A stretch of 28,537 nt of DNA from a virus, in IMG/VR virus record IMGVR_UViG_3300020347_000021, positions 1 through 28,537 of that record; one strand, given 5' to 3'. The notes beneath the pieces are model-generated. The model worked only from the letters and a program-made list of their open reading frames with translations, was not told the DNA's origin and searched no databases. Below are positions 11,355 to 13,837 of the stretch, piece after piece; position 1 is the first letter of the stretch; each line of letters begins with the position of its first letter. Position numbers and translations under genes: made by a program.

Positions 11355-11864
11355 TTATTTCTTATTAATGTTTACTTGTATTTGTTTTTCTAATCCTATT
11401 GAGTAAGCCTCTACTAATTCATCTGGCAGCCTTTTGAAAGCTGCTTCAAAGGGCTTTGTAAAAAACATACTAGGTCTTATTCCCTTTTTATAAATAGACT
11501 TAGCAATAGCAAATTTTATTCCTTCTCTTGATGTAAACTTACCGCCTTTGCCTCTTGGTGCTAATCCTTTTCTTACTACCCATTTATCAAAAGCCTTTAC
11601 TGGAGGCATCTTTGATGTGTATGAGTAAGGTGTATTATATTTCTTTTCAGTACCACTAACCCCTTTATCTTGAAACTTACCGTAATCAGACATATTAAGG
11701 CTCATAGAGGTAGTTCCACTGCTCTGGCTTATGTCATAACCTAAAGAGTTATAAAGTTCCTTAGACGCGTTCTTTTTTCCTTTAGTTAAGTTGCTTCGTG
11801 ATTGTTGTATAACATACTTAGCAAACTTATTTAACTCATCCCTTAAATATTTATCTGCTAGCAT
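11355..11864 (-). CDS. HK97 gp10-like tail completion protein
   Basis: The 169-residue basic protein has an N-terminal helix (DKYLRDELNKFAKYVIQQSR), then a conserved DYGKFQDKGVSG motif at about residues 59-70, then lysine-rich turns and a closing helix (FFTKPFEAAFKRLPDEL). The YGxFxDkG element followed by a RPSMFFTKPFEAAF-like end is the usual look of HK97 gp10-type neck or tail completion proteins, which help close the head-tail joint. It overlaps the upstream 156-residue gene by 7 bases. It is close to the usual length for the family. Confidence 0.7.
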   Translation of the reverse strand: MLADKYLRDELNKFAKYVIQQSRSNLTKGKKNASKELYNSLGYDISQSSGTTSMSLNMSDYGKFQDKGVSGTEKKYNTPYSYTSKMPPVKAFDKWVVRKGLAPRGKGGKFTSREGIKFAIAKSIYKKGIRPSMFFTKPFEAAFKRLPDELVEAYSIGLEKQIQVNINKK

Positions 11865-12328
11865 ATACTAATGTCGTTATGAATTACAATATCCATAGTA
11901 GCAGCAAACCCAGCTAGACGATTATCAAACCGCTCATAAAAAGGCTCTAAGGTTGCATCTCCTTCTAATTGAAACTTATCGCTATAAAGCGTACCCCTAC
12001 GCAATACCATTACTAATTTGTTTAATACCGCTAACTGTGTATTAAGCACGTCTTGCTCGTTGTTGTTGCCTCTGAATATATCTTCTGTTTTTTCTTTGCT
12101 CTCATCTACAATATCCATTGCCATTACAGTAATGTTAAAAGATAAAACTTGCTCTTGTGTAGTTACAGAGTTTATAACAATATGACTTAATGGGAAAACA
12201 CTTTGCTTAGATAAATCAATATCAAAAATATCGCCAGTTGTTACGGTGTTAACATTTACATCGCTTAAGAGTTGTGTTTTAATTGTTTCTGTTAGTTGGT
12301 AAAATCCCCTTATCCCTTGTTGGCTCAT
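11858..12328 (-). CDS. Probable tail terminator-like protein
   Basis: The 156-residue protein begins MSQQGIRGFYQLTETIKTQL and continues with alternating strands and helices (FPLSHIVINSVTTQEQVLSFN, FAATMDIVIHND). This order, with an N-terminal helix, a central curved sheet and a long helix around residues 93-110, resembles tail terminator proteins that cap the tail tube, and the next gene is gp10-like, its usual partner. I do not see a diagnostic motif, so the name rests on fold impression and context. Its start lies 6 bases after the end of the frameshift extension of the preceding gene. Confidence 0.5.
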   Translation of the reverse strand: MSQQGIRGFYQLTETIKTQLLSDVNVNTVTTGDIFDIDLSKQSVFPLSHIVINSVTTQEQVLSFNITVMAMDIVDESKEKTEDIFRGNNNEQDVLNTQLAVLNKLVMVLRRGTLYSDKFQLEGDATLEPFYERFDNRLAGFAATMDIVIHNDISIC

Positions 12329-12334
12329 TATATG

Positions 12335-13068
12335 TTATTTGAATTTGTTTTTTATTTGTGCTGATTCTATTTGGTTTTTTTCTTTAGTGTATTCTAAATA
12401 GGTTAAGCATTCGTGTAAATTTAGTTTAGTGATATATTTAAATTTTGTAATATCTCCGTCAGCGATTCCATAGATGGAATTGTACCATCCGTATTTTGCA
12501 GTGAAATTAGATGTTGTGCTAAAGCCTTCTCGTTCTTGGAGTCCAAAGAGTTCATCATAACTAGTGATAAGTCTTTCCCTAAAGTGTAAAAAAAAACAAT
12601 AGCACCAAGCACCGCATCAAGTGGAAAGTTTTTAGCCTCTTCACTTGTGTTTGTGTCATAATCTTCAATTACATATCTATCTCCTTTTTTTAGTTTTATA
12701 GGTCTGTATAGAACATTCATAGCCCTATGTATATTTTCGTTATCGCCTATAAAAGTGTCCAAGTCCATATACTCGCCAAAACTCATATCATCTAAATCTG
12801 GGATAAAGCCATATTCAACACCATTATAACTAAACCTATTCATAAGCTGATGTTCGGTATCAAACATATTATTTAATATTTCGCATATTTCTGAAATATC
12901 AGTAGCCTTCATATTTCTAACTACAACCTCTGGAACGTTGCAAAATATCTCAATCATTTTTAATTGTATAGCAGTTGTTTGCTGTTGACCTTCTAGTTTT
13001 GCAAACTCTTGATATTGACTTAAAGACAATTCATTTAAAGATGTCGGTATTTTAAGATTTACTTTCAT
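12335..13068 (-). CDS. Tail assembly chaperone, -1 frameshift extended form
   Basis: At the end of the 215-residue gene the ribosome meets A AAT TTA (zero-frame codons AAT and TTA) nine codons before the stop. Slipping back one base continues in an open frame for 34 more codons after the slip (KYITKLNLHECLTYLEYTKE, then KNQIESAQIKNKFK) and stops at 12335, six bases before the next start. The extension has no ATG of its own, its frame is open from the heptamer to the next gene, and it fills the only sizeable gap among the tail genes. Short and -1-extended products made from one gene are the hallmark of siphovirus tail assembly chaperones (lambda G and G-T). The fusion would be about 243 residues. 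Supported by sequence pattern only. Confidence 0.72.
12421..13068 (-). CDS. Tail assembly chaperone, zero-frame form
   Basis: The 215-residue acidic protein begins MKVNLKIPTSLNELSLSQYQ and is mostly helical (EFAKLEGQQQTTAIQLKMIE; GEYMDLDTFIGDNENIHRAM; AVLGAIVFFYTLGKDLSL). It has no membrane or signal segment. Proteins of this look occur in the tail region of Bacteroidetes phages. The slippery heptamer near its end makes a G-like tail chaperone role likely: such proteins coat the tape measure before tube assembly. Here the tape measure lies four large genes downstream instead of next door, which is unusual. The start is ATG 13068, after a GTTTATATATTA box. Confidence 0.7.
   Translation of the reverse strand: MKVNLKIPTSLNELSLSQYQEFAKLEGQQQTTAIQLKMIEIFCNVPEVVVRNMKATDISEICEILNNMFDTEHQLMNRFSYNGVEYGFIPDLDDMSFGEYMDLDTFIGDNENIHRAMNVLYRPIKLKKGDRYVIEDYDTNTSEEAKNFPLDAVLGAIVFFYTLGKDLSLVMMNSLDSKNEKALAQHLISLQNTDGTIPSMESLTEILQNLNISLN
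12439..12445 (-). other. -1 ribosomal frameshift slippery heptamer A AAT TTA
   Basis: On the minus strand this is AAATTTA with zero-frame phase A_AAT_TTA, a perfect X_XXY_YYZ site (the same heptamer used by Rous sarcoma virus gag-pol). The zero-frame stop follows soon after, at 12421. A second AAATTTA occurs about 20 bases downstream, in the -1 frame. I see no strong stem-loop immediately after it. Confidence 0.75.
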
Positions 13069-13108: not shown

Positions 13109-13837
13109 TTAGAAGAGTTTTAATTGTGCTTGTCCTATTCTTTGTTTTGCTATGTCAAAATACTTATCGTCTAACTCAATACCTATAAAATTTCTGTTTG
13201 TATTAACACAAGCTACACCAGTTGAACCGCTACCCATTGTAAAATCTAACACCGTTTCGTTTTCGTTAGTGTATGTTTTAATTAAGTATTCCATTAACTC
13301 AACTGGCTTTTGTGTTGGGTGTTGTTTCCTTTTTTGGTTGGCGTTGCTAAATTCAATAATAGAACTAGGGTAGTAGTCGTCATTAAAATTGTCAATAGGG
13401 TTCTTTAGTTGTCCGTATGTTTGAAAATCTTTAGAAGTTTGTATTTTTTTATTTCTGAATTTACCTTTGGTCATTTGTGGGTTGTACACATTTTTAGCAT
13501 TGAACACCATTACGTCCTCGTGACGTCTTAAAGGCATTCTTTTACAATTCAACATACCTACTTTCATTCTTTTATCCCAAACCCAATCATATTTGTAGTT
13601 TTTAATATTACTCATTCTTAAAGCGCTTGAAAACGGTTCACTTCCAAACAGTACTATTGCACCATTAGGTTTAATTATTCTGTTTAGTTGTTCCCACATT
13701 AAGTCAAAGTCTATAACGCTGTCCCATTTACAAGCAGTAGTACCGTATGGTGGGTCTGTTATTATTGCGTCTATTGAAGCGTCTGGTATTGACTTCATTA
13801 CCTCTAAGCATTCTCCTTTTATTAAATCTATTTTCAT
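13109..13837 (-). CDS. DNA methyltransferase, N6-adenine or N4-cytosine, beta class
   Basis: The 242-residue enzyme should transfer a methyl group from S-adenosylmethionine to an exocyclic amino group in DNA. The catalytic motif IV is ITDPPYGTT at residues 26-34. The AdoMet-binding motif I comes later, LDFTMGSGSTGVACV at about 197-211, and HPTQKPVELMEYLI (about 173-186) precedes it. Catalytic motif before binding motif defines the beta class (N6_N4_Mtase family). There is no restriction endonuclease next to it, so it is probably an orphan that protects phage DNA or marks it for packaging. It lies between large terminase and the tail chaperone. The target sequence cannot be read from the protein. 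Confidence 0.92.
   Translation of the reverse strand: MKIDLIKGECLEVMKSIPDASIDAIITDPPYGTTACKWDSVIDFDLMWEQLNRIIKPNGAIVLFGSEPFSSALRMSNIKNYKYDWVWDKRMKVGMLNCKRMPLRRHEDVMVFNAKNVYNPQMTKGKFRNKKIQTSKDFQTYGQLKNPIDNFNDDYYPSSIIEFSNANQKRKQHPTQKPVELMEYLIKTYTNENETVLDFTMGSGSTGVACVNTNRNFIGIELDDKYFDIAKQRIGQAQLKLF

Follow-up and report, generated by a model that had tools for sequence, protein, structure and literature searches.

Sequence comparison indicates that a marine phage gene on the minus strand of the window, the whole 28,537-nucleotide stretch of the IMG/VR virus record IMGVR_UViG_3300020347_000021, features a real and widely conserved -1 frame switch, which an earlier sequence-only reading had misplaced, and that transcriptional slippage is its most likely mechanism. 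The switch is located at a run of nine T's (T9), and the formation of a short and a long product by it is strongly supported by the relatives of the gene. The features of the region are the following.

12421..13068, minus strand: zero-frame gene, short product of 215 aa, stop codon at 12423-12421; full-length relatives exist, and phrog_32199 matches at E=1e-22.
12588..12596, minus strand: T9 run, the frame-switch site, GTT TTT TTT TAC, which holds the heptamer T_TTT_TTT; at least nine T's in 507/507, entropy 0 at nine bases.
12335..12595, minus strand: -1 frame extension of 86 codons, counted from the slip codons, followed by TAA; -1 frame in 505/507, conserved protein.
12421..12587, minus strand: dual-coded overlap with both frames conserved, as seen in the flattened codon-position entropy and the alignments of both frames.
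12439..12445, minus strand: A_AAT_TTA heptamer, not conserved and not the slip site; exact in 6/493.
11858..12328, minus strand: next gene, function unassigned (phrog_30964), with its ATG at 12328, six bases past the end of the extension.

The sequence-only reading described much of this layout correctly, including the boundaries of the zero-frame gene (13068..12421, minus strand), the A_AAT_TTA in zero-frame phase at 12445-12439, the end of the -1 frame at the TAA at 12337-12335, six bases ahead of the ATG at 12328, and the 92-base gap (12329-12420) between the zero-frame stop and that ATG. It also held that the extension has no start codon, and ATG, GTG, and TTG are indeed absent from the -1 frame of the window downstream of the T9 run. 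The -1 frame was said to be open from the heptamer to 12335; the end stands, but the frame opens at about 12616 and runs for about 94 codons, overlapping the zero-frame gene for most of 200 nt. The long product predicted for a switch at T9 has 244 aa and reads ...AIVFFLHFRERL... across the junction, and the predicted junction peptides of the gene are NFPLDAVLGAIVFFLHFR for the long form and NFPLDAVLGAIVFFYTLGK for the short form.

A total of 512 relatives were collected from IMG/VR, GTDB genomes, and cultured phages, giving 513 sequences with the window; some contigs were fetched repeatedly, and 340 sequences are distinct in the region analysed. Each half of the gene was detected by its own profile. 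The zero-frame protein is present in 513/513 and the extension in 507/513, and the six sequences without an extension all stop at the end of a contig. Of these 507 extensions, 505 lie in the -1 frame, more than chance would give, the exceptions being the contigs L497 (T11) and L503 (T12), so the conservation of the -1 frame for which an alignment of homologues had been proposed is borne out. Only the Nonlabens phages P12024S and P12024L match among cultured phages. One of the four genome-derived relatives (L305, JAHZJZ010000222.1) sits in a bin labelled Epsilonproteobacteria, which reflects either a binning error or a wider host range, and the other three are in Bacteroidota bins. In the sequence L213 (L213:3333), the zero frame is cut short by a stop that precedes an intact T9 and an intact extension, probably because the sequence contains an error or the copy is damaged.

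The position of the switch was determined from the variability of codon positions in 161 distinct gap-free sequences. Upstream of T9 the mean entropy at zero-frame positions 1/2/3 is 0.61/0.43/1.33, in the overlap it is 0.51/0.69/0.76, and below the zero-frame stop it is 0.41/0.97/0.55. The last pattern is that of the -1 frame, the third position of which is zero-frame position 2. The shift from zero-frame to dual-frame variability starts exactly at T9, where all nine bases have an entropy of 0, and dual coding spans about 165 nt from T9 to the zero-frame stop. At the level of coding pattern, these data establish a conserved frame switch at T9 with dual coding. The protein read from either frame of the overlap is conserved, and thus the short form has its own conserved tail after the slip point.

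The programmed -1 frameshift proposed by the sequence-only reading is therefore retained as a conserved -1 switch (505/507), but its site is T9, which lies 143-151 nt upstream of A_AAT_TTA. That heptamer exists in phase in the window, just ahead of the zero-frame stop, and a -1 ribosomal slip there was the original proposal. It is exact in only 6/493 relatives, AAATTTN is found in 57/493, and only 115/493 have an in-phase XXXYYYZ of any kind within the final 46 nt of the zero frame, while selection on the -1 frame begins about 150 nt upstream of it. Homologues lacking the heptamer had been named beforehand as the refutation of this proposal, and they refute the A_AAT_TTA version; a slip at this site is close to impossible.

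Two readings without a programmed switch can be weighed against the same data. The extension may be an independent gene that begins at its own start codon, which is how P12024S and P12024L are annotated and which fits the restriction of phrog_38404 to the C-terminal part. There is, however, no ATG, GTG, or TTG in the extension of the window and none between T9 and the zero-frame stop in 322/502 sequences, and the conservation reaches T9, upstream of any possible such start, making a separate gene extremely improbable. Alternatively, the run may change in length in the DNA itself, through phase variation or an error of sequencing, and not during the synthesis of RNA or protein. Run lengths of T11 and T12 in two contigs that are 99.6% identical agree with this reading, but T9 or T10 is present in 505/507, including two cultured genomes, and both frames are under simultaneous selection, so that DNA variation is very unlikely. 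Sequencing error in the homopolymer was ruled out by the presence of T9 in hundreds of contigs and two cultured genomes. L497 (T11) and L503 (T12), which share the 99.6% identity in this region, differ in run length from T10 relatives, and this difference is either real DNA variation or sequencing error. In L497, T11 puts the two halves into a single frame.

The switch at T9 may be made by RNA polymerase or by the ribosome, and the sequence data tilt toward RNA polymerase. Slippage of the polymerase is favoured because one U added at nine T's yields exactly the -1 frame. Homopolymers are reported to give mostly one-base insertions, and the RNA:DNA hybrid is nine bases long (PMC5574713). A poly(T) preference was reported for E. 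coli polymerase (PMC6260861), and nine is a common length at which selection against A/T runs is seen in many bacterial genomes (PMC1088944). The T run is 9 long in 489, 10 in 16, 11 in 1, and 12 in 1 of the 507 sequences with both halves, and it is never shorter than nine. T runs of at least nine are rare in other ORFs, with only 2 in 0.92 Mb. On the other hand, a preference for certain amino acids, namely V, L, or I before and an aromatic residue after, can account in part for the outer two T's.

A programmed -1 ribosomal frameshift, with tRNA-Phe slipping on U_UUU_UUU within the T9 run in both the P and A sites, is a serious rival, although a somewhat doubtful one. All sequences with the standard arrangement have T_TTT_TTT in phase, UUY codons shift well in E. 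coli (PMC4066793), and ribosomal shifts are used by all well-described tail chaperone pairs (PMC5009743). A ribosomal heptamer needs only seven T's with UUY (PMC4066793), yet the run always has at least nine T's and UUC is never used. The third base of the second slip Phe codon is T in 340/340 distinct sequences. TTC at this codon would alter neither protein (F-Y is kept in the zero frame and L, as CTA, in the -1 frame) and would retain U_UUU_UUC; it is expected in about 6% of sequences in the absence of selection, an estimate from codon usage alone. In a tree of 122 sequences this base has 0 changes, compared to 5-28 changes at single-coded conserved Phe codons and 7-24 changes at most other conserved Leu codons. 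Fixation is also seen at two further Phe columns and one Leu column of the extension, and since other doubly constrained positions of the overlap thus show the same behaviour, the absence of TTC is suggestive only.

After the slip pair comes Y, W, S, L, or F, and its codon begins with T in all sequences except those of one CTN clade. The first, preceding codon of this clade is TTT, and its run, in a shifted register, again counts nine T's. The clade was considered as proof of selection on run length; it is a single event (0 changes compared to 0.86 expected), so this evidence is weak. A search for conserved RNA structure downstream of T9 in 32 representatives found none (mean z 0.01 to -0.5). 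The lack of a stimulatory structure also argues against the ribosome, as U-heptamers without stimulators shift weakly in E. coli (PMC4066793).

In the favoured mechanism, the nine-base RNA:DNA hybrid at T9 would consist entirely of U:A pairs, which would allow RNA polymerase to step back by one base and occasionally add one U. The unslipped mRNA would be translated into the short form of 215 aa, which ends in a conserved tail of its own, and ordinary translation of the U-inserted mRNA would enter the -1 frame and produce the 244-aa long form. The two forms would share residues 1-160, and the C-terminus of the long form would differ, with 84 further residues. The rate of slippage would set the ratio of short to long form, which probably serves tail assembly as in lambda gpG/gpGT. 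Slippage by the polymerase and by the ribosome gives an identical long protein, and therefore proteomics alone cannot distinguish the two.

The products are quite likely tail assembly chaperones, a role that is inferred from the two-product design, a weak fold match, and the nearby tail genes. The Pfam search of the gene product gave no match, searches of the PDB by sequence and by fold gave no usable match, and phrog_166 ('tail protein') matches only weakly at E=0.004. A named tail assembly chaperone in BFVD is also a weak match (E=0.008, TM ~0.4), and the BFVD matches further include P12024S, many uncultured phage proteins, and Flavobacterium phage 6H. The structure of the N domain was predicted with good confidence. 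The fused form was modelled from L497, where T11 joins the halves, and the extension is poorly predicted with a pLDDT of ~45-60. The gene of Flavobacterium phage 6H (L514:10352-10927) is structurally a remote relative of the short form; it has no T9, and its frames suggest a different kind of recoding.

The tape measure gene is located downstream at 8029-5549, with four genes between it and the zero-frame gene, so the gene is not in the lambda position directly upstream of the tape measure. A gene resembling DNA methyltransferases (13109-13837) lies between the large terminase and the zero-frame gene of the window, and in P12024S and P12024L the homologous gene comes immediately after the terminase. 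The gene order of the window between 2 and 15047 is unusual in that, in the direction of transcription, the terminase, the T9 gene, the tail genes, and the tape measure precede the capsid-like and portal-like genes.

A tail chaperone gene with two products is well known. The ratios of tail chaperone products have been described as set by ribosomal -1, -2, or +1 shifts (PMC5009743). A literature search covering mainly open-access papers gave no account of tail chaperones that use transcriptional slippage, and the making of two tail chaperone products in this way would be new as far as was checked. The chances are about even that, in a large and mostly uncultured group of Bacteroidota phages, the tail chaperone ratio is set by RNA-polymerase slippage at a conserved T9, which would replace the ribosomal frameshift of other tailed phages. 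If polymerase slippage is true, these phages arrived at the known two-product design by way of another enzyme.

Lambda gpG/gpGT and related tail chaperone pairs use a programmed -1 ribosomal frameshift, and the known tail chaperones rely on ribosomal shifts, some without a known RNA stimulator. The gene of the window shares with lambda gpG/gpGT the overlapping frames, the -1 direction, a small acidic short form, a C-terminally extended long form, and a tailed phage as its source. The G/G-T design suggested by the sequence-only reading thus holds for the two overlapping frames and the conserved -1 shift, but not for a place directly before the tape measure gene. The window gene differs from the lambda pair in that its slip site is an invariant run of at least nine T's, about 165 nt are dual coding, the short form has a conserved tail, the gene adjoins the terminase region four genes ahead of the tape measure, and its sequence has no detectable match among the known Pfam chaperone families. 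Bacterial genes that use transcriptional slippage include mxiE (T9) and spa13 (A10) of Shigella and dnaX (A9) of Thermus. These genes likewise feature a run of nine A's or T's, reach an extension by a one-base change in run length, and do not need RNA structure, whereas the gene described here is a phage structural-assembly gene with putative slippage.

The closest comparison is with genes 38/39 of P12024S (L002) and 40/41 of P12024L (L003), which are ~30% identical to the window gene, feature a T9 and a -1 extension, and occupy the same place after the large terminase. Unlike in the window, their short form ends earlier, the methyltransferase gene between the terminase and the homologous gene is missing, and the halves are annotated as two separate hypothetical proteins. 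PHROGs also lists the halves separately, as the families phrog_32199 and phrog_38404, each without an assigned function. Annotation splits the protein into two unrelated 'unknown' families, and consequently the pair goes unnoticed in hundreds of phage genomes from marine and freshwater sources. P12024S genes 38/39 and P12024L genes 40/41 should each be regarded as one recoded gene.
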